From the NCBI RefSeq assembly GCF_003858395.1, contig NZ_QWEV01000005.1, positions 2,914,001-2,978,000 on the forward strand: DNA of 64,000 nt. Direction: 5' to 3'. Below, piece by piece: positions 41,992 to 55,309 of this stretch. The notes under the pieces were generated by a model, which was not told where the DNA came from, did not search any database, and saw only the letters and a list, made by a program, of their open reading frames with translations. This DNA comes from Acidipila sp. EB88 (lineage in GTDB: Bacteria > Acidobacteriota > Terriglobia > Terriglobales > Acidobacteriaceae). How positions within the stretch are numbered: the stretch's first letter is position 1; every line of letters starts with the position of its first letter. Made by a program: the position numbers and the translations under genes.

Positions 41992-44088
41992 CTAAAGCAC
42001 GCCGTGCGCCCCCTGTGTGGGCGACTGTGCGGTATTGGCATAGTTGGGGTTGAACGGTACAGCCTCGATCCAGTTCTTCTTGGTGCCATCAGGCACCAGG
42101 GTGCCGTGGCTTTCTATGTATTGTGTGGCCTGGGACATCGTCATGCAGGTAGCACCGAACGACTGCAGATTTTGAAAGAGTGTTTGCCAGGAGGCGAGGC
42201 TGAACTCATCGACGCCGTGTGAGTAGATCCCCATCACGCCGCCGACCGCGCCCATTCCCTCCACGATCGCGGCCGCCGAGGAGGTTGGCTTGGTGGCGTC
42301 GAAGCCGGACGGAATCCAGATAGAAGCCAGGTCGTAGATGTCCAGGTTGGATAGCAGCCAGCTGCCATTTGGATTTTCGTTCGCATCCAGGATGCTGTTG
42401 CGGTTTGCTGCAAAGCCCGCATCGCGTACGTGGTTTTCCACTGTTTCGCTGGACGAACTGAAGGGTGTCGCGAAGGAAGTCGGGGTGTATCCCGGCATGT
42501 TCGCCTCGATATCGGCAAGCGATCCTTCTACCTCGTAGGTCAGGTAATCGCTGGTTGCTGCCGCAACATATGGCTGCAGAATGTTGACTCCCGTGACAGC
42601 GGCAAGCTCAGCAGGGGTGAAGTAGTTCTGATTCAGCAAGGGAACGCATGAGTAGTGCGTGTTTTGCTGGACCACCGAGCAGACATCGATCATGCCGTTG
42701 TATGTGTTGGATATGTCGACGTCGAGATCAGGCGTGGTCGAACCATTAAGAAATGTCTGGAGGCGTCCCACAGGCTGGTTGACGTTCATGGTTGCCGTGC
42801 TGGCGGTGCCCGTGTACTGGATGGTGACAACCATGGGATTGGCCAGGTCGCCGTGGCTGCGAGTATGCGCAACGATCTCGGTGCCCGCCTTCTGCATGCC
42901 GATGATTGTCTGCCAATCCGTCGGGGTCACCAGCTTCGTGTTGAGAGCATAGCTGAGCTTGCATCCGTACTGCTGGGCAAGGGTCGCGACGGATTGCGCG
43001 ACGCCCAGGTTGATGTAGTCGTCGATGAAGGGAACGATGATGAGGGGAGCTGCTCGCTGCGTGAAGGCAGGGCTGGTGTTCACATTGGTGCCGTCGTCGG
43101 TCACGTCAATGTACGTGCTGACGAGCGAAGCTTCAGGATTGGGCAGGAGGATCGAGTGCGAGACAGTGAGTGGGTACGAGCTGTAGTTGCGAATCACCGC
43201 CTCCTGGGCATTTCCCGTGGAATTCCCGGTGATGGTGGAGCCTGTGATTGTGCTGGCTGCCGTGGTGCCGTATACCTCGAACGCTCCGTCGTAGTTCCCG
43301 CTGAGGATGGAATTGGACACCACCATGCCGCTGCCGCCGCCTATGCCAATGCCGGTTTCGTTGTAAAGACCCTTGCTGCTGCTGACAACCTGGGTCCCAC
43401 CCTCCGCGCGCAGCCCCTCGTACTGCGCGCCCTGGAAGAGCACGTTGGTGATGGTCTGCGTGCCGGAGGCAGAGGACTCGATGTCGATGGCGGTGTAGTT
43501 GGGATTGACGAAGGCCAGCCCGCTCAGCGTGGTGCCGGAGACGCTGGCGATCATGACGGCGGAGTCGCGCTGCGCTGCTTCAATGCCGGGGGCCTTATAT
43601 GCTGTGCCGGGATTGCCGGTGGAATAGACAAAAAGATAGGTGCCATCGAAGTACCACTGCGTAGGTGCGAGTACCGCACTCTGCGTGGCTACCTGCCGTC
43701 CGAGAACGGTGTTGAACCACACCTGCTCCGGAGCATAGCTGCCCACAAGCACCTTCCATACATTGGTACTCCCGCCTGCTGCCCAGCCAGTGGTGTACAC
43801 GTTGGCGCCACTGATGATGGGGCGTGCACCAGAACCATAGCTGGTGAACGTGAGGTTGTTTACTTTGGGCAACAGTTGCTCCCGCCAGGTGCCACCGGCG
43901 AGAAAAGCAATGGTGTCGCCGGACTGGAAGGAGTGCGCATTGACGTGCGCAACGGTCTTCCAGGGAGTGGACTGCGTGGTGCCGGGCGCGCTGTCGTTGC
44001 CGCTCGGGCTGACGTAGTATGTGGTGGCTAGGGCAGGTGTCGCTGCCAGGAGACCAAGAGCTTGGATAAGAGTGAAGGCAGAACGCAT
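41992..44088 (-). CDS. Secreted beta-helix protein fused to a polysaccharide-deacetylase-like domain
   Basis: A 698-residue secreted protein. Signal peptide MRSAFTLIQALGLLAATPALA-TTYYVSPSG. Residues ~25-370 are a parallel beta-helix (TYYVSPSGNDSAPGTTQ as in DUF1565/pectate-lyase-like repeats; many short repeats of the SNSILSGNYDGAFEV kind). Residues ~370-680 resemble a NodB/polysaccharide deacetylase: FIDDYINLG (motif 1 Asp pair), EIVAHTRSHGDLANP (motif 2, metal-binding His pair H-T-R-S-H) and YSHGVDEFSL near the end (final His). Motif 3 (normally R-x-P-Y) reads FATPFS without the Arg. It follows the polysaccharide operon on the same strand with 110 bases between genes, so it probably trims or deacetylates the exported polymer. 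A longer frame from 44154 lacks a signal at its start. Confidence 0.82.
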   Translation of the reverse strand: MRSAFTLIQALGLLAATPALATTYYVSPSGNDSAPGTTQSTPWKTVAHVNAHSFQSGDTIAFLAGGTWREQLLPKVNNLTFTSYGSGARPIISGANVYTTGWAAGGSTNVWKVLVGSYAPEQVWFNTVLGRQVATQSAVLAPTQWYFDGTYLFVYSTGNPGTAYKAPGIEAAQRDSAVMIASVSGTTLSGLAFVNPNYTAIDIESSASGTQTITNVLFQGAQYEGLRAEGGTQVVSSSKGLYNETGIGIGGGSGMVVSNSILSGNYDGAFEVYGTTAASTITGSTITGNSTGNAQEAVIRNYSSYPLTVSHSILLPNPEASLVSTYIDVTDDGTNVNTSPAFTQRAAPLIIVPFIDDYINLGVAQSVATLAQQYGCKLSYALNTKLVTPTDWQTIIGMQKAGTEIVAHTRSHGDLANPMVVTIQYTGTASTATMNVNQPVGRLQTFLNGSTTPDLDVDISNTYNGMIDVCSVVQQNTHYSCVPLLNQNYFTPAELAAVTGVNILQPYVAAATSDYLTYEVEGSLADIEANMPGYTPTSFATPFSSSSETVENHVRDAGFAANRNSILDANENPNGSWLLSNLDIYDLASIWIPSGFDATKPTSSAAAIVEGMGAVGGVMGIYSHGVDEFSLASWQTLFQNLQSFGATCMTMSQATQYIESHGTLVPDGTKKNWIEAVPFNPNYANTAQSPTQGAHGVL

Positions 44089-44198
44089 CGCGAGGACCTC
44101 AGAAAGGATGTGGCTGCGGCAGGGCAGCGCAGCAAGATCGACTTGGCGCAGCAAAATGAATATGTGGAGCGATCACCGGAAAGCTGATCAGGAACGGT

Positions 44199-45821
44199 CT
44201 AGGGCCGTTTCGTTACCGGAGGAACGACATAGAGGATGTTGTTGGCAAGGACCGTGGTGATCTCGTTCTGTATGCCGCTGCCGTTGGCATTTCCGTAGAG
44301 CCCGCCGTAGGGGAGTAATTCACTTTCAGGCGTCGCGGTATAGATATCGAGGTCAGTGCATCCGTAGTCCATGACGTAGTAGCCGTAGGTCTGCATCGCG
44401 GTGAGGATGCGCAGGGCGGGGCGGCTGAGCCCGAGGCTCGATAGATCCAGGGCTGGGTCGAGCTGAATGACGCCGCCGTAAGGAACGAGTCCCGTGTTCA
44501 TGACCCCTGAGCCTGTGCACGGCTTCACGCTGGTGAGGATGCCGTAGTCCCGAGCAGTTGCCGGATAGACGCGTCCCGCCCAGGGTCGGCTGATAGAGCC
44601 GCCGATAGCATGCAGGATGGGGCCGCTATCGGACGTGGATTCGCCAGGCATCGTCAGCAGTGGGAGCTCTGCAACGCGCGCAGCAACGGAGCCTCCGTAG
44701 TCCCCAAGGGAGTCGAGCGAGGCGGGATCGCCGGCGTAGAGGGCGTCTGGAAATTTGGTTGCGGGGTCGACGGTTGTTTTGTAAGCGCTTACAAAGGAGC
44801 GCAGCTGTGGATCGACAAAGACGACGTGTTCATCCCCGGCGGGGAGCGAAGGCAGGTACGATGCCCAGTTCCCGGGAATGCGGAATGGGATGGTTCGGTA
44901 AGTGCCGGGCTGGCCGGGCCAGTCGCTGGTGATCACAGCGGGCAGCGAGTCAGCCTGTGCCGGCGCTATGCCGAAGCCAATGCCATCCCCTCCCTGGTTC
45001 GTGTTGACCTGGATCGACTGGATATAGCCGCGCGGCAACGGCACCCGTGGCCACGCTGCGGGAATCTTATGGTAGTACGGTGCGTCGCCGGAAAACTGCA
45101 TGCTAAAGGGAGCGCCGGCGGATGCTAGGGTGGGCCCCCATTGCCCAGGGATGAGCGAAGGCAGGAGCGTCGAGATATCGTTCAACGGATCAGCGGCGAC
45201 GTCATACCCGAAGTTGAGATACATCGCGGCAACCTGCTGCCGGGTCGCGGACTCAGCCGGCGTCAGCCCATCGCCGGGCGTGGCGGTTTGAGAAAGGATT
45301 GTGGAGAGCTCCTTCGGCTGTGAGCTCGATTGCAAAGGCGCGGTCAGTGCCGCGCTGAAGTCAGCGTCCGCGGTGGGTACGACGATAAGGTCGATCATGC
45401 TGGAACTGGCAGATAGCGAGCCTCCCACGTAAGAGACAGCCTGTAACTGGTGCGCGCCTGGCGCGACGACCCGCGACGACAGGTGCTGCACCTCGCTGCC
45501 TGCCCGCTCGAACGCCGCTCCATCCAAGCACAGGTACGTAGTGGCTCCTGCAGGGGCGCCGGCAATCGAAAGCGTGACCCCGCCAGAGACCGTAGCAGGG
45601 CTGACGAGTCCCAGTATCTGCAGGGACGAGGCGCCGCTCGCACTCGGATGCGCCACAGCGGCTTCTTCGCAGCTTAGCTGGGCAAACACGATGTTGGCTC
45701 GGAACCCAAAGCATGCCGAAAGCAGCAGGGTGCCAACGAGAGCGACACTGAAGGCGCAGCGACGCGCCAGGCGAGGGGGGATCCGCATGAACAAGCGCGG
45801 CAGCGGTGTCTCAAGACGCAT
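44199..45821 (-). CDS. Lipoprotein of unknown function in the polysaccharide operon
   Basis: A 540-residue protein with a signal peptide and lipobox TLLLSAC (Cys37). After an Ig-like region (SPATVSGGVTLSIAGAPAGATTYLCLD) the C-terminal ~350 residues carry blocks such as GFGIAPAQADSLP, IGGSISRPWAGRVYPATARDYG, PYGGVIQLDPALDLSSLGLS and ILTAMQTYGYYVMDYGC. From memory, a similar pattern (a low-complexity polar N-terminus, then an 'I-x-LDPSLDL...ALQ-x-YG-x-YV-x-D' tail) occurs in secreted hypothetical proteins of actinobacteria and acidobacteria; no activity is established. GGAG 7 bases before ATG 45821, and the 11-base overlap with the GT4 gene, fix the start and imply coupled translation. A polysaccharide-binding or lytic role is inference from the operon. 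Confidence 0.8.
   Translation of the reverse strand: MRLETPLPRLFMRIPPRLARRCAFSVALVGTLLLSACFGFRANIVFAQLSCEEAAVAHPSASGASSLQILGLVSPATVSGGVTLSIAGAPAGATTYLCLDGAAFERAGSEVQHLSSRVVAPGAHQLQAVSYVGGSLSASSSMIDLIVVPTADADFSAALTAPLQSSSQPKELSTILSQTATPGDGLTPAESATRQQVAAMYLNFGYDVAADPLNDISTLLPSLIPGQWGPTLASAGAPFSMQFSGDAPYYHKIPAAWPRVPLPRGYIQSIQVNTNQGGDGIGFGIAPAQADSLPAVITSDWPGQPGTYRTIPFRIPGNWASYLPSLPAGDEHVVFVDPQLRSFVSAYKTTVDPATKFPDALYAGDPASLDSLGDYGGSVAARVAELPLLTMPGESTSDSGPILHAIGGSISRPWAGRVYPATARDYGILTSVKPCTGSGVMNTGLVPYGGVIQLDPALDLSSLGLSRPALRILTAMQTYGYYVMDYGCTDLDIYTATPESELLPYGGLYGNANGSGIQNEITTVLANNILYVVPPVTKRP
44778..44795. promoter_or_regulatory. 18-base perfect palindrome with cre-like core, intragenic
   Basis: TTTGTAAGCGCTTACAAA is a perfect palindrome and its core TGTAAGCGCTTACA fits the LacI/CcpA operator pattern. 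It lies inside the lipoprotein gene (coding for FVSAYK), so it may be coincidence or an intragenic roadblock site. Confidence 0.35.
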
Positions 45822-46971
45822 CTTCGATCTCCAGTGAAACGCGCTGGCCGCCGGCGGCGGTCGCGGTCTGACGGCGGACATCCAGTGAGGCGTAAAGGGC
45901 TCCAAGTGCGTGGTCAGTCTCCGCGATGCTGCACTGTGCCTCTACAGTGCGGCGGCCGTTTTCAGCGAGAGAGTACGCGAAAACAGGGCTCCGCAGCAAG
46001 CGAATGAGCGCGGTGGCAAGCGCCTCAGCATCGCCTGGCGGTACTAACAAGCCGTTGTATTCGCTGGTAACTACATCGGGGATGCCGCCAACAGGCGTAG
46101 TGATGACGGGAAGGCTGTGGCTCATGGCCTCGAGCAGCGCCATCGGCACTCCCTCGTTATGGCTGGGGAGGCAAAAGATGCTGGCCTGCGCGTAGAGCTC
46201 TGCAAGGTGAGTATGGTCCACCCATCCAAGCAGATGGACCTGGCTTGCAATGCCGAGCTTCGCAGCATGCGCTCGTGCTTCCGGGAGTGCACCATGGCCA
46301 GCGAACCAGAACTCGACGGATGGATGCTCGGCCAGTACGACGGCCGCTGCGTCGAGCAGGGTCAGAAAGCCTTTGCGGGCCTCGAGTTTGCCGGCAAACA
46401 GTACGCGGCAGTGTTCCGCGCCCTGCGGGGGTGGCTCGGGCGCAATCCGCACCGGGTTGGGAATCACCACGATCTCCGTGCGCGGGAGGTGGCGGCGCAG
46501 AATAGCAGCCCAGGCCGGGGAGAGCGCAATGACGCGATCCGCAGCGTTGAACGCGCACTTCCATGCCCACGCTGGGGTCTTCTGAAAGAGAGATTCCTCG
46601 CTACCCGCGTGTACGTGCAGGATCAGCGGCTTGCGCATGAGCTTCGCCATCAGGATCAAGGGAAGCTTGCGCAGGAGGCTGATCTCGCCGGCGAGATGCA
46701 AGTGCACGAGAGTCGCGCTGCTAAGGGCGCGAGGCGCGCGTAGATAGGCATTGATCGCGGCACGTACCTTGCGGACTGCGTTGCGATCGTCGTAGGTAGG
46801 AAAGAGCCGGCAGCGCATGCGCCGCCACGTCTCGGTAGTCTGGTGCATGCGCACCACCGAGTCGATGCCGCCGCGACCGCCGTGACCTGGAGCGATCACA
46901 AGAACCGTTGGCACATCGCTGCTTGCTCGTCGGCCAAGCAGTGGCTCATCAGGGTGCAGAGTGTTTTGCAT
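45811..46971 (-). CDS. Glycosyltransferase family 4
   Basis: A 386-residue GT-B fold enzyme. The N-terminal acceptor domain starts TVLVIAPGHGGRGGIDSVVRMH (glycine-rich loop) and contains LILHVHAGSEESLF; the donor domain has VLFAGKLEARKGFLTLLDA and the E-x7-E type element SHNEGVPMALLEAMSHSLPVITTPVGGIPDVV. It would transfer a sugar from a nucleotide donor to the growing lipid-linked repeat unit on the cytoplasmic face. It begins one base after the TGA of the preceding gene with GAGG 5 bases upstream, and its end overlaps the lipoprotein gene. Donor and acceptor cannot be deduced. Confidence 0.94.
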   Translation of the reverse strand: MQNTLHPDEPLLGRRASSDVPTVLVIAPGHGGRGGIDSVVRMHQTTETWRRMRCRLFPTYDDRNAVRKVRAAINAYLRAPRALSSATLVHLHLAGEISLLRKLPLILMAKLMRKPLILHVHAGSEESLFQKTPAWAWKCAFNAADRVIALSPAWAAILRRHLPRTEIVVIPNPVRIAPEPPPQGAEHCRVLFAGKLEARKGFLTLLDAAAVVLAEHPSVEFWFAGHGALPEARAHAAKLGIASQVHLLGWVDHTHLAELYAQASIFCLPSHNEGVPMALLEAMSHSLPVITTPVGGIPDVVTSEYNGLLVPPGDAEALATALIRLLRSPVFAYSLAENGRRTVEAQCSIAETDHALGALYASLDVRRQTATAAGGQRVSLEIEDAS

Positions 46972-46972
46972 G

Positions 46973-48880
46973 TCAGCCTCGGGCGCTTGTGGTTTCGAAG
47001 CGAACGGCGCTCGTGTCGATCAGGTCGTCGAAGAAGTTGCCGGGGTACGCGCGCGCAGGGTGCGGAGCGATTGGACGGAAGGACGAGAGCACACTCAACG
47101 GGATGTTTGCGTCGCGGCAGAGCTGCTCAACCATGGGTTGCAAGGTCGCGGAGGCGCTGCCAGCGCGCACAAAGATGTGCTGCACGGAATGCTTCTTGAT
47201 CAGGCGTGCGAGCTCACGGGTGGGTTTCAGGACGCGCAGGCCGCACACCGTGAAGCCTTGGATCTCTGCGCGATCATCAATGAATCCAATGGCGTGGAGG
47301 TTGGGGTAGTTGAGCCGGAGCTCCGAAAGAATGCTGATGCCGGAAGCATCCGCGCTGCCGATCAGTACGTTCTGCCGGGCCGGACCGCGCAGGAATCGCA
47401 GCGCGCGACCGATCAGCTGGTTGGTCAACAGGTGGTAACCACTGAACACGAGCACGGAGAGTACGGCATCGAGAAAGTAAATCGGACGAGCGATCGAGAC
47501 CGCGTCGTGATGCGCAAGCAGCGAGGCGGCAAGAGCACCTGTCAGCGAGGAGACAAAGCCTGCGACGGCAAGCGTGGGCACCTCGTCAATTGAAACAAAC
47601 CGCCAATGCATACGATGGATGCGCATCAGCGCAAGCACGCCGCACTGGACCGCAGCCCACGTCCCAAGTATGGACACCAATGGGAAGTGTGTATTCACAG
47701 GCAGTTGGCCGTCGTAGTGCAGCAGCATGGCCAGCAAGCTGCAACCAAAGGCAAGTACGGCGATCAGCGCGAGTTGCAGGCCGGAGTATACGCGGCGTGA
47801 GCGGATGCCAAAGCCGGAGCGCGCACCTCGCACTGGCAGCGTTGCGCTGGCGCGCAGCAGCACAGGCTCTGTACCGCCGGCACCCAGCAGGTGTGCCACC
47901 GCGAGCAGGGGCAAAAACGCCAGGGCGGCATAGAGCAGCGCGTGCACACTGTCTACCTCGGCCAGCAGTGCGAGTGGCGCAAGCCAGACCAGGTTGACCA
48001 GGCCGATCGATCCTGAAACCCTGCGGTGACCAAAGCGCAGGGCAAGGATCTGAAAGGCGTGAGTGCGATGTGCGAGATACCAGCGCTCGCCGCGCAGCAT
48101 GCGCGTCAGCAGGGTCAGGGTGGCGTCGCTGAGAAACACTCCAAAGAGGATGATGGGCGCAGCCAGCGAGAGCTGTTGATGCCGGGCAGCAATCAGTACG
48201 AGCACCCCCATGGTGAAGCCAAGAAAGCAGCTGCCTGCATCGCCCATGAACAAACGCGCAGGTGACCAGTTAAACAGCAGAAAGGGAGCGACCGCAGCGA
48301 CAAGCATGACGAACAGCAAAGCGCAGGGAGTGAAGCCGTGGCGCAGAACGATGAGTCCAGCGCACAGTGCACCCACGCTCACGATCTGAATGGTGACGAT
48401 GCCGTCGATCCCGTCCATGAAGTTTGTGAGGTTGAGCAGCCAGGTCAATGCCAGCACGGCCAGTCCGAGGAGCAGCATGGAGCCGGCCTCCAGCGCGGGC
48501 GTGTGTGTGCGGGAGCCAAGCGAGAAGACGCACAGCACGGCGGTGGTGACAACCACAAGCTGCATCGCGAGGCGCACACGAATAGGAACGCCGCCAAGAT
48601 CGTCCCAGTAGCCAACCAGTGCAATTGCCAGCCCGGACAATGTTGCAATCGCTTCGAGCGGCGAGAGCACATGCGCAGCGGCCAGCACCACAATGCCGGC
48701 GATGAAGGCAGCGGAGAATGCCACGCCTCCACCGCGAGGCACCGGCAGGGTATGCGACGACCGGTGATTGGGGATGTCGATGATCTGCTTGCGAATGGCA
48801 AAGGACAGGTAATGCTCAATCGCCAGATAGGAGAAGAGCGCGAGGAGGATCAACAAGGCGAGCACGAGAGAAGCATTCAT
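46973..48880 (-). CDS. Fusion: WbpL/WecA-like sugar-phosphate transferase plus FlaA1/CapD-type membrane and CoA-binding-like domain
   Basis: A 635-residue membrane protein of two parts. Residues ~1-330 are a polyprenyl-phosphate HexNAc-1-phosphate transferase (MraY/WecA superfamily, nearest to WbpL): IIDIPNHRSSHTLPVPRGGG, LLNLTNFMDGIDG, RLFMGDAGSCFLG and the cytoplasmic loop with HRTHAFQ. This step starts repeat-unit synthesis on undecaprenyl phosphate. Residues ~350-635 match the N-terminal half of FlaA1/WbpM/CapD proteins: four membrane helices and then a nucleotide-binding-like domain with NVLIGSADASG, HAIGFIDDRAEIQGF and GLRVLKP. The catalytic short-chain dehydratase domain (glycine-rich GGxGSIG and YxxxK) that normally follows is absent. 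Start ATG 48880 has GGAAG 8 bases upstream; a longer frame to 48970 lacks support. Confidence 0.88.
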   Translation of the reverse strand: MNASLVLALLILLALFSYLAIEHYLSFAIRKQIIDIPNHRSSHTLPVPRGGGVAFSAAFIAGIVVLAAAHVLSPLEAIATLSGLAIALVGYWDDLGGVPIRVRLAMQLVVVTTAVLCVFSLGSRTHTPALEAGSMLLLGLAVLALTWLLNLTNFMDGIDGIVTIQIVSVGALCAGLIVLRHGFTPCALLFVMLVAAVAPFLLFNWSPARLFMGDAGSCFLGFTMGVLVLIAARHQQLSLAAPIILFGVFLSDATLTLLTRMLRGERWYLAHRTHAFQILALRFGHRRVSGSIGLVNLVWLAPLALLAEVDSVHALLYAALAFLPLLAVAHLLGAGGTEPVLLRASATLPVRGARSGFGIRSRRVYSGLQLALIAVLAFGCSLLAMLLHYDGQLPVNTHFPLVSILGTWAAVQCGVLALMRIHRMHWRFVSIDEVPTLAVAGFVSSLTGALAASLLAHHDAVSIARPIYFLDAVLSVLVFSGYHLLTNQLIGRALRFLRGPARQNVLIGSADASGISILSELRLNYPNLHAIGFIDDRAEIQGFTVCGLRVLKPTRELARLIKKHSVQHIFVRAGSASATLQPMVEQLCRDANIPLSVLSSFRPIAPHPARAYPGNFFDDLIDTSAVRFETTSARG

Positions 48881-48914: not shown

Positions 48915-49733
48915 TCATTTTGCGTCTCTACCCACGTCCAAAGAGCCGCGGCTGAACAGGGCTGCGCCATGGCGCAGCGCCGACAGTGCTACTTGGGTAA
49001 AGAACATGGCTGCGAATACGGGGGAGTACAAATTTCTACGTGCCAGCCGTCGAGGCTCCTGGCAGAGGCGAGCCAACCAGGCCAGACCGAGCCCTTGCAT
49101 GGTGGCCGACGGCAGCTTCTTTTCTCCCGACAGAAACTCGAAAACAGCACCGACGCCGAGACACACACATCGCAGGTCCGGCGCATTGCGAAGCATCCAA
49201 AGCTCCTGCTTGACGGAGCCCAGCCCGACAAAGAGAAGCTGCACATTGGCGGCATTGATGGACGCGTGAACCGCGGAACGCTCGTCCTCGGTGAGTTCGC
49301 GAAAGGGTGGCGAGTAGAGGTAGGCGATCTCGAGGTCGGGGTACTGCGACGCAAGCGCCGCCTCCAGCTTCTGCAATGTCTGCTGGGTGCCGCCATAGAA
49401 CCCCACCCGCAGGCCCTGCGCCGCGGCGATGCGGAGCAGCACCGGCGTCTGCATGGGGCCGCTGACACACTGTGCTTCATGAAAGCCCAGGACGCGCAGG
49501 CACCAGGCGAGCGGCATGCCGTCCGGGTTAACGAGCGCCGCCGTCTCATAGGCCTTGCGAATATCCTCGCGACGCGTAGCGACGACGAGCTGGTGCGCGG
49601 TGGCAAAGCAGACGAAGGCAGGCTCTTCACGCTGCACGAGCGAAAGGATGTAGCGGCTGGTGGACTCGTGTGAGGTCACGTCGACCGCGGTCGTGAGAAT
49701 GGTGCCGGTGCGACGATCAAGCGAATTGTTCAT
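48915..49733 (-). CDS. WecG/TagA/CpsF family glycosyltransferase (GT26)
   Basis: A 272-residue enzyme with the family signatures ALVNPDGMPLAWCLR (catalytic Asp region), LRVGFYGGTQQTLQKLEA and LFVGLGSVKQELWM. The last normally reads G-x-P-K-Q-E; here Val replaces Pro. GT26 enzymes add a second sugar (ManNAc-type or Glc) to lipid-linked GlcNAc, so it would act right after the fusion enzyme. It overlaps the preceding polymerase gene by 17 bases. C-terminal basic/hydrophobic tail (LYSPVFAAMFFTQVALS) suggests membrane association. Confidence 0.93.
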   Translation of the reverse strand: MNNSLDRRTGTILTTAVDVTSHESTSRYILSLVQREEPAFVCFATAHQLVVATRREDIRKAYETAALVNPDGMPLAWCLRVLGFHEAQCVSGPMQTPVLLRIAAAQGLRVGFYGGTQQTLQKLEAALASQYPDLEIAYLYSPPFRELTEDERSAVHASINAANVQLLFVGLGSVKQELWMLRNAPDLRCVCLGVGAVFEFLSGEKKLPSATMQGLGLAWLARLCQEPRRLARRNLYSPVFAAMFFTQVALSALRHGAALFSRGSLDVGRDAK

Positions 49734-51051
49734 CGGGTTCTCCAGGGTGCGTCTCCATGGCTGGGGTAGCCCTTGCTGTCAGCGCCCCTCCTGCCGCACG
49801 GCGCGCCTGGCGCCGCTCGGCAGGCCGCGTGATGCCAAGCAGCGCAAAGGTGTAGCAGGTCATCGCGTCGGTGCCCCAGATCTGACCCGTAAGCTGCCCG
49901 TGGCAGAGATAGGCGAGCAGGATCGCGATGCTGGCGGCCGCAGTTGCCGTGCGCACAGGGGCAAGCAGGCTCTGTCGCACAAAGCTGCCAACCAGTGTGA
50001 GCAGCCACATTGCCCCGACGAGGCCGCCCACGAGCAGCATGTCGAACAGGTCATTGTGGGTGTGCTTGATGTCGTCGCCATACTCGTGGAACAGCATGGT
50101 GGACATGGCGTGGTAGCCATTGCCGAGTGCCTGCCCCGCCAGGTCGTCGTCTTCGTAAGCATTCACGGCAAGCTTCCAGAAAGTGGCGCGCCCGGAGCCT
50201 GCCTTGTCCGAGTCCCCAAGATCGCTCCAGCGCGCAAGCAGTTGGTGCGTGTCCACAACGGCGGGTACAAGCAGGAGCGCACCGAGCATGAGCGCGAGAA
50301 GGCGCGTGAGCCAGCGACCAGTGCCTGCAGGGGCAAGGAAGAATCGCCAGAAAGTGAGCCACAGCAGCGCGGCACCGAGCGCCGCCATGCCGGCACGCGC
50401 ATAGGTAAGCACACAGGCTGCGAAACAAAGCATGGCCGCAAGCGGATGCAGCCAGCTGCGCCGTGCGCGACCCAGGTAGAGGATCACGATGCCGCTCACG
50501 ACCAGGATGCCGGTGATCATCTTCGCCGTGTCGAACCAGCCGGCCGAAGCATCTACCGCATCGCTCGAGTAATAGTTGCCTGCGCCAGCGACCAGCCCGG
50601 CGAAAACGGACAACGCGGTGAGTACCCCTCCGGCGGCGACCCCCTTCAGCAGGAGCTCGGCCTGGGCGCGGCTGCGGATCAGCAGGGACACCAGTGTCCA
50701 CAGCACGAGCCAGTAGACCAGCTGGCCGTAGGACGCGACGCTTTCCAGTGAGAGCGTGCCGGTCAGCAGTATCTCCTTGCTGGTGGCAATGGCCACCAGT
50801 GCCACAGCACCAAGAGCTGCGAAGGGGACCGCTGTGCGTGTGCCGACCTGACGCTTCAGGTGTCTTGCGATCAGAAAAAGAAACACAAGGAGGAGCGGGC
50901 CGCGCAGCAGCTGCAGGAAACTGACTGGACCGAACCGAAGATCCAGTGCGTTGTTGAGTTGGTTGGTGAAGCAGTCCATCGTGGGGATCATCGAGAGTGC
51001 AATGATCAGCCGGCGATCTGGCATCGTGGCGGTGGGTGCATGCGTGCTCAT
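49717..51051 (-). CDS. O-antigen ligase/polymerase-like membrane protein (WaaL/Wzy type)
   Basis: A 444-residue protein with about ten to twelve hydrophobic helices and a periplasmic loop ending in KHTHNDLFDMLLVGGLVGA, the His-rich Wzy_C motif of O-antigen ligases and polymerases. In a Wzx/Wzy-type operon it is the best candidate to polymerise repeat units at the outer face of the inner membrane. ATG 51051 overlaps the stop of the flippase gene in ATGA, and its 3' end overlaps the GT26 gene. Confidence 0.88.
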   Translation of the reverse strand: MSTHAPTATMPDRRLIIALSMIPTMDCFTNQLNNALDLRFGPVSFLQLLRGPLLLVFLFLIARHLKRQVGTRTAVPFAALGAVALVAIATSKEILLTGTLSLESVASYGQLVYWLVLWTLVSLLIRSRAQAELLLKGVAAGGVLTALSVFAGLVAGAGNYYSSDAVDASAGWFDTAKMITGILVVSGIVILYLGRARRSWLHPLAAMLCFAACVLTYARAGMAALGAALLWLTFWRFFLAPAGTGRWLTRLLALMLGALLLVPAVVDTHQLLARWSDLGDSDKAGSGRATFWKLAVNAYEDDDLAGQALGNGYHAMSTMLFHEYGDDIKHTHNDLFDMLLVGGLVGAMWLLTLVGSFVRQSLLAPVRTATAAASIAILLAYLCHGQLTGQIWGTDAMTCYTFALLGITRPAERRQARRAAGGALTARATPAMETHPGEPDEQFA

Positions 51052-52460
51052 GCATACCTCCCCACAGCCACTGACTGCCTGGGTCGCGCTTCGGTCTCTT
51101 GGATGGTGAGCGAACGCAGCACGAGCAAGGCTGCCGGTGCTGCGTAGAGAATCCCGAAGGTGAGATCAGTCGCCCAGACCACGCCCGCGAGCGACCCATG
51201 GCGCGCTGCAACGATCTTGAACACGAGGCTGAGGATGGCTGCGCTGCCAAAAAGCACAAGGTGGCGTCGCATGGTGCGCGGCTGATTCAGCAGGGCATTC
51301 ATGGCAGCGATGTAGCCGACAAGCACCACCCACACCGCAAAGCCGAGGCGCAGCATGTCGACGCTGCCAAGATCGATGCCAGACCAGTGAAGCATCAAGG
51401 TGCGGCTGATCAGCAGCAGGATACTGCCGCAGGCGAGGCCAAGCCCAAGGCTGAAAAGTATGGCGCGACGCGCAATCTGGCGCGCCCACGCGTAATCATG
51501 TCGCGTGAGTGCCTCGCCGATGGCTGGCCACAGCGGCAGCATGAAGTACTGCGCGACCAGGCCCATCGAGAAGATTCGCTGCAGCACGGCATACTGTGCC
51601 ACCTCGCGAGCGCCCAGTGTGCGTGAGATCACCACATTGTCGCTGACGTAGTAGATAAGACCGAAGCACTGCTGCAGAAAGAACAGGCCCCCGACAGACG
51701 CCAGCCGGAGTGCCGAGTGGAGATCAAACAGTGCCAGTCGCGGGCGCAGCCAGGGCCGCACACGGAAGAACTGCCAGGCGCAGTTGCAGGTTGTGGCCAG
51801 CAACGGTGCGCCTGCGACCGCACACACCAGAGCCGGCAGTCCGCCGCGTAAGTGCGTCGCGAGCAGGATGCCGCCGAGCGCGAGCAGATTGCCTGCGGCA
51901 TTCCAAAGGTCCGCCACAAAGCCCTGCTGATAACCAAGCTGTACGCGCAGCACTGTGCCGACCGGCATGGAAAGCGCGGTGCACACAATCAGGATCGCCG
52001 AGACCGGACCGGCCTCGCTGCATGCCAGCGCGCCGCGCGTGCCGTACAGCGACGCCCACGGGATGAAGTGGTAGGCGCATGCGCCGGCAAGCAGAAGGCA
52101 GCAGCAGACACCGGTGAGCAGCAGGAAGCCGCACGTGACTTGCCGCTGCGCCTCGGCGTGATCATCGCGGCCATCGGCCGCCGAGATGGCCGCGGTCAGG
52201 CCATTGCCGACACCGAAGTCGGCGAAGCCGAGAAACAGGATCAGCGAAGTCACCGTCATCCAGAGCCCGTAACGCTCGGCCCCGAGGTAGTGATAGGTGA
52301 GCGGCACGGAGATGATGGTGGTCGCCAGCACGATCAGCTTGGCGAAGATCGACGTGAAGCCGTTGATGGTGACGCGCCGCACGCGCTGGCGGGCCCGCAA
52401 CCCGACGGGTTGCTCGGCAGCAGGAGGTGCGATGGCGGCGATGCGAACGGGCGTGGCCAT
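51048..52460 (-). CDS. Polysaccharide flippase-like protein (Wzx, MOP superfamily)
   Basis: A 470-residue polytopic membrane protein with about 12-14 helices, beginning VRRVTINGFTSIFAKLIVLATTIISVPLTYHYLGAERYGLWMTVTSLI, a pattern typical of polysaccharide biosynthesis flippases (Polysacc_synt). It would flip the lipid-linked repeat unit to the periplasmic side. A basic 30-residue N-terminal tail precedes the first helix. It begins two bases after the stop of the Wza-like gene. Transport substrate not deducible. Confidence 0.9.
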   Translation of the reverse strand: MATPVRIAAIAPPAAEQPVGLRARQRVRRVTINGFTSIFAKLIVLATTIISVPLTYHYLGAERYGLWMTVTSLILFLGFADFGVGNGLTAAISAADGRDDHAEAQRQVTCGFLLLTGVCCCLLLAGACAYHFIPWASLYGTRGALACSEAGPVSAILIVCTALSMPVGTVLRVQLGYQQGFVADLWNAAGNLLALGGILLATHLRGGLPALVCAVAGAPLLATTCNCAWQFFRVRPWLRPRLALFDLHSALRLASVGGLFFLQQCFGLIYYVSDNVVISRTLGAREVAQYAVLQRIFSMGLVAQYFMLPLWPAIGEALTRHDYAWARQIARRAILFSLGLGLACGSILLLISRTLMLHWSGIDLGSVDMLRLGFAVWVVLVGYIAAMNALLNQPRTMRRHLVLFGSAAILSLVFKIVAARHGSLAGVVWATDLTFGILYAAPAALLVLRSLTIQETEARPRQSVAVGRYA

Positions 52461-52462
52461 GG

Positions 52463-53176
52463 TTAGCGGACCGGCGAGTAGATAGCGCCGAACTGCCCGA
52501 GGTGGGCGAGCCGCTCGACCTTGCTGAGATTGTTTTGCGTCACGTAGATCACGTCGCCCGGACGCACCGGGCCTACCTCCTCAAGCTTCTGCTCCTTGAT
52601 GAGCTTGGCAAGATCGAGCCGCGTGGTCTGGAACTGGTTGCCGTCGCCGGTGCGTCGCAGCAGCAGTACCTGGTTCTTCGCGCCGGAACTCTTGAAGCCG
52701 CCTGCGACCGCGATCGCGTCGAGTACCGAAAGATCGCCCCGCAGATCGACGCGACCCGGCGTCGCCACTTCACCCTCCACAAGCACGTGTGGCTGGTCGA
52801 AGGTCTTGAGCAGGATGGTGACCTCGGGCTTGACCAGGCGCGTGGTTGCGAGATCGACGACCTTCTGCTGGAACTCACTCACCGTGAGGTCGGCCGCGGA
52901 AAGAGTGCCGAGGTTGAGCAGCGTTACGCGCTGATCGGGACGCACCTTGACCAACTGGTCGAACTCGGGGGTGTAGCGGAAGCGAATGTCGAGTTCATCG
53001 CCGCTTTGCAGGATGTACTCGGGATGGCGTTGCGCGATGGCCTGCGCGTGGGCTTGCACGCAGGGCAGATAGCTGCACAAGGCGGTCGCAGAGAGGAAGG
53101 AGACTCGCAGCAGGCGACCTGCGCGATGTGTTCTGGACCGAATCCCCGCAGGGGTGAGCGGCAAGTTAGTAGGCAT
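52463..53176 (-). CDS. Polysaccharide export protein (Wza-like, Poly_export plus SLBB)
   Basis: A 237-residue secreted protein. After a signal peptide (VSFLSATALCSYLPCVQAHA) comes the export domain YILQSGDELDIRFRYTPEFDQLVKVRPDQRVTLLNLG (residues ~55-140) and one SLBB-like beta-grasp (QPHVLVEGEVATPGRVDLRGDLSVLDAIAVAGG). It lacks the C-terminal amphipathic helix of E. coli Wza and is shorter (about 380 there), so how it crosses the outer membrane is unclear. It overlaps the upstream kinase-like gene by 11 bases. ATG 53176 has GGAG 10 bases upstream. Confidence 0.92.
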   Translation of the reverse strand: MPTNLPLTPAGIRSRTHRAGRLLRVSFLSATALCSYLPCVQAHAQAIAQRHPEYILQSGDELDIRFRYTPEFDQLVKVRPDQRVTLLNLGTLSAADLTVSEFQQKVVDLATTRLVKPEVTILLKTFDQPHVLVEGEVATPGRVDLRGDLSVLDAIAVAGGFKSSGAKNQVLLLRRTGDGNQFQTTRLDLAKLIKEQKLEEVGPVRPGDVIYVTQNNLSKVERLAHLGQFGAIYSPVR

Positions 53177-53777
53177 TGAAGATAGCTCCAGACAGGCGTC
53201 CGCCATGCAGTTTCAGCAGCGCCTGGGCGCGCTTCAGATCGGTTTCGCGACTTTGTTGCCGCCTTGCCACCAGCACCGTGCCCGACACAAGCGAGGCAAG
53301 GCGAAGAGCGTCCTGGTGGACGGAGAGTGCCGGCGCATCGATCAGGAGGTGGCCGTACTCGCCTTCAAACGCGCGCAACAATGCCGGGAGACCTGCCGGT
53401 GTTGTTTCGTCATCCCATGCTTTCTCCTGCTCTACCTCCTGCATGCCAAGTGTGACGAGACCCGGCTGCGCCGCGCGGCGGCAAAGGGACAAGGCAGCGC
53501 CAGGCGTGAGGGCTGCAATTGAGAGCAGCGCGCGAGCGTCCACGAGCAGCACGCGGCCACCCTGGTGAGCGACTTCCGCAGCCAGGTGACTGCACAGGAA
53601 CGAGACACCAGCCCCGCGCTCAGCCGCAGTGAGCAGGATGCGCGTGGGAAGCAGCGCATGCGTGCTGAAGAGCTCGCGCACTAACTCGCTGAAGCGGTTG
53701 CGTGCCCGCGGCCTGGCGGATGCCTCGTAGGAGGCGGACTCGGCAAACGCCGGCTCGGGAATGACTTGCACACTCAT
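53166..53777 (-). CDS. Degenerate BY-kinase-like (Wzc/CpsD C-terminal) protein without a Walker A lysine
   Basis: A 203-residue protein aligned with the cytoplasmic P-loop domain of bacterial tyrosine kinases (CpsD/CapB/Wzc). The Walker A site that should read G-x-x-x-G-x-G-K-S/T is replaced by TAAERGAGVSFLCSHLAAE (residues ~50-68): the catalytic Lys is Val. The Walker A' motif VLLVDARALL is recognisable, and the second Asp region is LLIDAPALS. There is no tyrosine-rich C-terminal tail; the protein ends FNAY. Length and gene order (between Wzz- and Wza-like genes) match a split Wzc. It probably cannot hydrolyse ATP and may act as a structural partner. It overlaps the upstream gene in ATGA. 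Confidence 0.82.
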   Translation of the reverse strand: MSVQVIPEPAFAESASYEASARPRARNRFSELVRELFSTHALLPTRILLTAAERGAGVSFLCSHLAAEVAHQGGRVLLVDARALLSIAALTPGAALSLCRRAAQPGLVTLGMQEVEQEKAWDDETTPAGLPALLRAFEGEYGHLLIDAPALSVHQDALRLASLVSGTVLVARRQQSRETDLKRAQALLKLHGGRLSGAIFNAY

Positions 53778-55309
53778 AGAAGCTCCAGGTCGGCAAGGGG
53801 TGCGTTGCGTTGCATGGCAAGGTAAAGTCCGCGCGACTCGTCGTTCATCGCGGAGGCCTGGAGCGTGCGCGGCAGCGCCAGCAGAATGGGTATGCCGAGT
53901 GCCAGTTCCAGATCAAGCTGTGTCAGGATGCGTGGTTCCGAGTGCTCCAGCATGGCGACTATGCTCAGGGAGAGCGCAAGCGACCACACAAGTCCCAGCA
54001 GCAGGATGAGACCCCGCTTTGGAAAGGTCGCCAGATGCTCAACGACCGGGGCTTCCACCACTGCAATGTCAGAGAAGTGGCCCTGATCCAGCATCTGTCC
54101 GACATAGGCTTCATCTGTCTTGTGCTGGTAGAGCACAAGCAGGGAAGAGAGCGATTCCACACGGCGATTGAGCTCGTCATAGCCGCTGGACGAAGCATCC
54201 AGAGCGGTGAGCGCCTGCTGGCTGCCTTTCAGTTCAGCCGTAAGCCTCGCAGTCTGCGCCGTCACGCCCGCGAAACCTGCGCGCGAACGCACCAGTTCGG
54301 TCTGCGAAGCTATCAACGCCGGGTTCTGCCCGTTTGAGACTTCGAGCGCGGGGGTGCTTTCCGCCTTCGCAATCGCTGCCTGCGTCACACGGATCTGCGC
54401 ATCCAGGTCGGTAAGGATGCGGTCCCCCGGCTGGTAGCGTGTAGCGGCTTCTTCGCGACGGTTCTGCAGCCCCACCAGGGTCGAGGCAAGCGCCTGTGTG
54501 GAGGACTGGTTGGGGATGGAGCGGCGGGCAGTCTCCACTGTCGGCGGCAGCGAGCTTGCGTCCTGCGAGTAGCTCTGTGTCTCGTGGTTCTCCTTGTCCG
54601 CTTCGGCCTGGCTGATCGCCACGCTCTGTTGCAACAGGGCGATATGTTCCAGCAGGCTCTTCTTCTGCTCCGGCAGGGCCACAAGGTGATGAGTGCTGCG
54701 GAACTCCGCCATCTGGCTCTCGGCAGTATTCAGTGCCGACTCCGTGCTCCGCTGGAGAGCCTTGAAAAAGTCGTACGAACCAGGCGTGCCATGCAGGGTT
54801 TGTTGCGACTGCTGGTAGAGCTGGTTCAGTGTCGAGAGCACCTGCGCAGCGCGGTTCGGGTCAGGCGCCACATACGTCACTTCTATGACATTCGATCGGT
54901 GCGCGGGGGCGACAGTGAGCGCCTTGCGCAGGTCGCGCGTGGCTGCTTCCTGGCGCTCATCGGGCGGGTAGTGGCTGTACTTGCTGAGAGTGTCGAGCCG
55001 CGTCTGCGTCACGACCCTGCGCAGCAACTCGCCGCTTGTGAGCAGCTCCATTTCGGTGCTGATCCGCGCATCACTGACTTCGCTGGACGCCCGCGGAGCC
55101 TGCGTCTGGTCGCCGATGCTCAGCAAAGGACTCTCTCGCTCGTTCTTGACCAGCAGCTTGAGGTGCGAGGTGTACCGGCTGGGGAGTACCAGCGCGGTGA
55201 GCAGGACCACGAGCATGGAACCGCCAAAAAGTGCAGCCGCTAAGGCACGTCTGCGTACTAGAACCTGGAGCCAGGAACTTGCGAAACCAGCGCGAGCAAA
55301 AGTGCGCAT
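53774..55309 (-). CDS. Chain-length determinant/polysaccharide co-polymerase (Wzz/GumC-like)
   Basis: A 511-residue inner-membrane protein with an N-terminal helix (ALAAALFGGSMLVVLLTALVL), a large periplasmic coiled-coil domain (two repeats of long helices around residues 170-400) and a C-terminal helix (GLILLLGLVWSLALSLSIVAML), which is the PCP/GumC topology. It would set polymer length and bridge polymerase and export. First gene of the operon; promoter expected in 55310-55712. It is followed by the kinase-like gene with an ATGA overlap, as in split PCP-kinase pairs. Confidence 0.92.
   Translation of the reverse strand: MRTFARAGFASSWLQVLVRRRALAAALFGGSMLVVLLTALVLPSRYTSHLKLLVKNERESPLLSIGDQTQAPRASSEVSDARISTEMELLTSGELLRRVVTQTRLDTLSKYSHYPPDERQEAATRDLRKALTVAPAHRSNVIEVTYVAPDPNRAAQVLSTLNQLYQQSQQTLHGTPGSYDFFKALQRSTESALNTAESQMAEFRSTHHLVALPEQKKSLLEHIALLQQSVAISQAEADKENHETQSYSQDASSLPPTVETARRSIPNQSSTQALASTLVGLQNRREEAATRYQPGDRILTDLDAQIRVTQAAIAKAESTPALEVSNGQNPALIASQTELVRSRAGFAGVTAQTARLTAELKGSQQALTALDASSSGYDELNRRVESLSSLLVLYQHKTDEAYVGQMLDQGHFSDIAVVEAPVVEHLATFPKRGLILLLGLVWSLALSLSIVAMLEHSEPRILTQLDLELALGIPILLALPRTLQASAMNDESRGLYLAMQRNAPLADLELL

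Follow-up and report, generated by a model that had tools for sequence, protein, structure and literature searches.

The window analysed here, a stretch of 64,000 nucleotides from Acidipila sp. EB88, contains a polysaccharide cluster in which a polytopic PGT is joined to a FlaA1-type accessory module. The gene for this fusion is a single uninterrupted open reading frame on the minus strand, running from an ATG at 48880 to a stop codon ending at 46973 (635 codons). Among 398 surveyed genomes of the family, three others (G371, G368 and G327) were found to carry one-frame fusions of the same clade, which we refer to as clade I. The cluster in clade I has the order Wzz, CpsD-like protein, Wza, Wzx, Wzy, WecG, fusion, GT4 and an unknown protein that is conserved. 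The ten window genes compared all occur in order in G371, and synteny is near-complete in G368 and G327.

Features of the fusion gene and its cluster (positions in the window)
Feature	Position	Strand	Evidence and remarks
GT4-family glycosyltransferase	45811..46971	-	PF13692, 6.1e-39; conserved neighbour, starts directly after the stop codon of the fusion
Fusion gene: polytopic PGT + FlaA1-type four-helix bundle + Rossmann-like domain, 635 aa	46973..48880	-	One open frame; same fusion in G371, G368, G327
C-terminal tail, residues 600-635, predicted disordered	46976..47083	-	pLDDT <50; stops at the point where the SDR domain would begin in FlaA1 proteins
Rossmann-like cytosolic domain (PF13727-like), residues 503-598	47087..47374	-	3nkl match; strands and helices in models
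Degenerate glycine-rich loop VLIGSADASG, residues 505-514 (FlaA1: IYGAGDAG)	47339..47368	-	Alignment of 104 C halves
Four-helix membrane bundle, FlaA1/WbaP type, residues 359-498	47387..47806	-	Predicted helices; match of C-half model to WbaP 8t53
Linker, residues 339-358, predicted disordered	47807..47866	-	pLDDT <50 at 340-358
Polytopic PGT domain (WecA/WbpL/MraY), residues 1-338	47867..48880	-	PF00953, motif positions, model
WecG/TagA/CpsF glycosyltransferase	48915..49733	-	PF03808, 8.7e-46; neighbour kept in G371, G368, G327
Wzy/O-antigen ligase-type polymerase	49717..51051	-	PF04932, 6.9e-14; kept in three other clusters
Wzx-type flippase	51048..52460	-	PF01943, 5.7e-12; conserved
Wza-type polysaccharide export protein	52463..53206	-	PF02563, 6.5e-12; conserved
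Wzz-type chain-length protein	53774..55309	-	TIGR03007, 6.5e-26, below the equivalog cut-off; conserved

Three further minus-strand genes lie in or near the cluster. The protein encoded at 44199-45905 (568 aa) has no Pfam or NCBIfam match, is 46-48% identical in the three other clade I clusters and adjoins the GT4 gene in every clade I cluster; it is a conserved part of the clade I polysaccharide system. At 41992-44154, a 720-aa protein combines a right-handed beta-helix with a polysaccharide-deacetylase-like domain, and it is kept near the cluster in the other clade I genomes. The 203-aa CpsD-like protein at 53166-53777 shows weak matches to polysaccharide tyrosine autokinases and is possibly a degenerate kinase.

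The first half of the fusion had been taken, in a sequence-only reading of the window, for a WbpL-like transferase. This was borne out by a domain search, in which PF00953 matched residues 79-230 with an E value of 2e-29 (103 bits against a cut-off of 27). PGT motifs were located at residues 90-94 (GYWDD), 150-160 (NLTNFMDGIDG), 211-217 (FMGDAGS) and 271-276 (HRTHAF); the Asp and His catalytic motifs are intact, and the key columns are conserved in all 46 alignment rows. In a model of the full-length protein, the PGT domain was predicted with pLDDT mostly above 90, and its best matches among solved folds were MraY and DPAGT1. The alignment used for this model included ten rows in which one or two TGA codons lying between neighbouring wbpL and flaA1 genes were read as W, a device to keep the two halves paired that makes no claim about the genes. 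The sole other PF00953 protein of the genome, a 405-aa frame, is probably MraY.

For the second half, a membrane and nucleotide-binding-like part of FlaA1/WbpM type had been proposed, and the similarity to FlaA1 proved real. PF13727 remained below threshold on the C half (14.8-19.2 bits against a cut-off of 25), and TIGR03025 of NCBIfam matched residues 376-603 (9e-12), a segment that corresponds to the N-terminal, non-catalytic portion of the family. The match to 3nkl, a solved N-terminal domain of FlaA1 type, was 5e-6 by sequence and 2e-11 with a profile. A profile of FlaA1 N-terminal domains, built without the nearest relative (from genome G137), scored 119 bits against the C half (E 1.4e-37 in a 12-sequence set). 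Similarity of the C-terminal 36 residues to the FlaA1 interdomain linker is suggestive in a pairwise comparison with G137 FlaA1, and the G137-free profile stops short of the tail. In the full-length model, helices are predicted at residues 359-388, 398-418, 431-456 and 466-498. When modelled alone, the C half was predicted to form four long helices followed by an alternating alpha/beta domain, with a pLDDT of 77. The best solved matches to this C-half model were 3nkl and WbaP (8t53), followed by the NAD(H)-sensing Rex repressors. The match to WbaP covered 267 columns with an E value of 5.9e-5 and an rmsd of 14.9, which is large because the two sub-domains were not superposed together.

The catalytic short-chain dehydrogenase (SDR) domain had been described as missing, and a domain search of the fusion protein indeed found no PF02719. 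Nor did the protein match PF02397, the catalytic domain of monotopic PGTs, and tblastn of the flanks recovered no SDR relic near the gene. Judged by its domain content, the protein is a polytopic PGT carrying a borrowed accessory module and neither a dehydratase, because the defining SDR domain is absent, nor a monotopic PGT.

We then considered whether the gene could be an artefact, namely a frameshift, a mis-assembly or the recent partial duplicate of a full FlaA1 that the sequence-only reading had named as its alternative. A complete flaA1 might have been missed in an assembly that is about 88% complete. However, the rest of the genome yielded no full-length FlaA1, and its absence is likely: the best PF02719 matches there reach at most 41.9 bits, compared with 249 bits for a true FlaA1 fragment of a relative. 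The only two other PF13727 proteins of the genome have monotopic-PGT length, are both confirmed by PF02397 and are located elsewhere. With no SDR relic beside the gene, and with this fusion recurring in the same cluster of three further genomes, we give an artefact next to no credence; a frameshift or assembly fault was rejected on the open frame in four syntenic genomes. Since the architecture also recurs in other genomes, the fusion is not a product of chance or faulty assembly.

This recurrence was followed in genome surveys within the phylum. Clade I is rare, with the window and G327 as its only one-frame fusions in a class survey of 399 genomes. A second group of one-frame fusions, clade II, is represented in the family survey by G135, G329, G369 and G201. 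Of 396 genomes sampled across the phylum, about 65 have a one-frame fusion of clade II or similar type, as counted by hand from search rows spanning both halves; separate profiles of the two halves confirmed 35 of these loci, all of which lack a dehydratase domain. The fusion is therefore not unique to the window, and the combination of polytopic PGT and module is common in the phylum. In clade II (e.g. L192, L177 and L022), PF00953 and PF13727 both score above cut-off in the proteins scanned, and the genes occupy neighbourhoods different from those of clade I. No relatives were found in viral contigs, and on plasmids both of the two best-covered annotated matches are separate neighbouring genes.

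Several related architectures were observed alongside. In G423, a 1046-aa frame (L249:1230-4367) carries a GT4 glycosyltransferase in addition to a polytopic PGT and the four-helix/PF13727 module, and this triple fusion joins the first steps of repeat-unit synthesis. Two fusions (L252:2434-4635 and L253:2525-4759) have a PGT half, with the motif NAFNIVDGLDGL / NAFNLIDGLDGL, that branches outside the clade II PGTs; they may stem from a third fusion or represent an early branch of clade II. The ordinary WecA proteins of the family (L013:1486-3063 and similar loci) are about 500-570 aa long and carry at the C terminus a different extension, about 190 residues long and without NCBIfam match, which is a possible further accessory domain on polytopic PGTs.

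The origin of the clade I fusion was traced with trees of both halves, which were quick maximum-likelihood searches with SH-aLRT support only. In G137, wbpL and a full-length flaA1 are separate genes, adjacent and in frame, 18 bases apart. The clade I N halves and the transferase of this pair form one clade inside the WbpL group, and the clade I C halves form one clade with G137 FlaA1 within the FlaA1 domains, apart from the domains of monotopic PGTs. Grouping of both halves with the split G137 pair received support of 98-100 and was repeated with other rows. A search of named genomes found wbpL directly followed by a gene with a flaA1 N-terminal domain in 60 of the 80 best loci, a fraction that is biased upwards by a search favouring loci where both halves match. 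The suggestion that the two halves had been neighbours, as wbpL and wbpM are, thus finds support in both the trees and the adjacent gene pairs elsewhere. Because the trees of both halves place the fusion beside the split G137 pair, the best history is one in which adjacent wbpL and flaA1 genes were fused and the dehydratase domain was lost, in either order. For clade II, the N half falls in the WecA group and the C half in a group of its own, and since both halves lie elsewhere in the trees, the two fusions are independent.

These trees also bear on a derivation of the C half from a large monotopic PGT of WcaJ/WbaP type instead of FlaA1. Such a source is hinted at by the best NCBIfam names, TIGR03025 and TIGR03023, both of which are PGT families, and by the presence of two such PGTs in the window's genome. 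Yet both C-half trees put the C half inside FlaA1, beside G137 FlaA1, with support of 95-100, and the SDR domain was present in 18 of 18 sampled C-half matches of the family survey. We regard a monotopic-PGT origin as very improbable, and it was rejected on the trees.

Next, we compared the glycine-rich loop of the Rossmann-like domain across 104 aligned C halves. The motif is YGAGDAG or YGAGDGG in FlaA1 proteins and in most clade II fusions, and the loops of clade I read GSADASG in the window, CSADMAG in G371, FGATQAG in G368 and YGADAAG in G327. The full-length FlaA1 of G137 has the same YGADAAG as G327, so the alteration of the clade I pocket is in part present already in this full-length protein. 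With regard to the structural check for a retained nucleotide pocket that had been suggested, a Rossmann-like fold is predicted and its glycine-rich loop is degenerate in clade I. The altered loop does not by itself exclude nucleotide binding, because the modules of the phylum's monotopic PGTs likewise have no canonical loop.

Selection on the C half was assessed with codon-position identities in place of dN/dS because synonymous sites were saturated. Among the four clade I genomes, third positions of the C half are identical at a fraction of 0.27-0.32 (0.26-0.28 expected by chance), first positions at 0.38-0.46 and second positions at 0.53-0.64, and the frame is open over 253-283 codons in all four. 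As second positions are conserved and third positions are at chance, the C half is under purifying selection in the four genomes and is kept for its protein sequence, and it is no relic. Some features could nevertheless be read as those of a functionless, decaying remnant of a fused dehydratase: the dehydratase domain is gone, the Pfam score is below cut-off, the loop is degenerate, and sequence change has been faster in the C half than in the N half (24-34% against 39-54% pairwise protein identity among the four clade I proteins). Decay is countered by the open frames and conserved second positions, by a fold that is predicted intact and by the parallel clade II fusion, which keeps the same module without a dehydratase. 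We consider it quite improbable. Since related genomes keep the fused half under selection, its role is probably to regulate the starter enzyme or to anchor it.

The closest precedent is WbaP, in which the module is reported to supply most dimer contacts and to sense uridine nucleotides (Dodge 2024, PMC10942596). According to that work, the isolated module domain of WbaP is stabilised by UMP, UDP and UTP, and UMP inhibits the full-length enzyme with an IC50 of 4.1 uM; PglF-like dehydratases share this module, a sharing that was called puzzling (PMC10942596). No paper on a polytopic PGT with a four-helix and Rossmann module was found in the open-access literature. The sensor or scaffold role suggested in the sequence-only reading would best fit the C half, with WbaP as its published precedent. 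The earlier proposal of a possible new way to regulate initiation calls for amendment: monotopic PGTs were already known to carry the accessory module, and its fusion to polytopic PGTs is common in the phylum.

We propose that the fusion protein catalyses the initiating step for a Wzx/Wzy-dependent polysaccharide cluster. The N half would move HexNAc-1-phosphate from a UDP-sugar onto undecaprenyl phosphate, and both family membership and the neighbouring WecG point to UDP-HexNAc as the substrate. The C half is the non-catalytic front of a FlaA1/WbpM dehydratase, captured by a wbpL-flaA1 fusion with loss of the dehydratase domain, and it would dimerise the enzyme and tune its activity as reported for the module on monotopic WbaP. 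Such tuning would keep scarce undecaprenyl phosphate from over-commitment, and the module might also report the nucleotide state while holding the initiating enzyme in an assembly. Taken as a whole, an initiating polytopic PGT with a captured FlaA1 front half as its dimerisation and feedback module is the explanation we favour, with moderate confidence. The altered glycine loop and the faster change of the C half weigh against it. Transfer of the WbaP module function to a polytopic PGT is an analogy between enzymes whose catalytic folds are unrelated. Dimerisation alone may not explain the module, because MraY-type PGTs already form dimers with no accessory module present (PMC10942596, Table 1). 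Dimerisation or scaffolding is the safer assignment, because the nucleotide loop is degenerate in clade I. Sensing of uridine nucleotides by the window protein is doubtful; for clade II it is rated higher, because the loop is intact in most members examined.

A C half acting solely as a scaffold, docking the initiating enzyme beside WecG, GT4 or Wzx without sensing a ligand, would suit a small and strictly syntenic cluster and the degenerate glycine loop of the Rossmann-like domain. Clade II, however, mostly keeps its loop intact and lies in other gene neighbourhoods, so that docking fails to account for the general pattern, and we find a scaffold-only role unlikely. Returning to the favoured dimerisation and feedback module, a broader proposal, which we hold tentatively and doubt slightly more than we believe, is that the four-helix and Rossmann module serves as a portable means of controlling the first step of polysaccharide synthesis, the one that commits the carrier. 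On this view, the module is carried both by monotopic PGTs and by the dehydratases supplying PGTs, and polytopic PGTs acquired it in at least two independent events, one of them, seen here, through a neighbouring dehydratase that lost its catalytic domain and kept its regulatory half. Independent fusions of the module to an unrelated catalytic core argue for action on PGT initiation generally and not on one fold. The finding bears on the rationing of undecaprenyl phosphate between glycan pathways that compete for it, and the fusions offer natural constructs with and without the module.

Compared with the polytopic PGTs WbpL and WecA (PF00953), the fusion has the same catalytic half, motifs, predicted MraY-like fold and WecG/Wzx/Wzy context. 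Described members, in contrast, have the PGT domain only (polytopic PGTs are listed as 'PGT only' in Table 1 of PMC10942596), and the fusion adds about 280 FlaA1-type residues. With the dehydratases FlaA1, WbpM, PglF and CapD (PF13727 and PF02719) it shares the bundle and the Rossmann-like domain, and it groups in the tree with a FlaA1 of the same bacterial family. It differs from them in its altered loop, in the position of the module behind a PGT and in having no SDR catalytic domain, so that no dehydratase function is expected. The clade II WecA-type fusions (e.g. L192, L177 and L022) have the same domain order and length, but both of their halves lie elsewhere in the trees, and most of them keep the YGAGDGG loop that is altered in clade I. 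Finally, the large monotopic PGTs WbaP and WcaJ (four transmembrane helices, PF13727 and PF02397) resemble the fusion in being a PGT with the same accessory module. Their catalytic fold is unrelated, their module is N-terminal whereas that of the fusion is C-terminal, and the module domains lie apart in the tree; by analogy, a common regulatory logic is likely.
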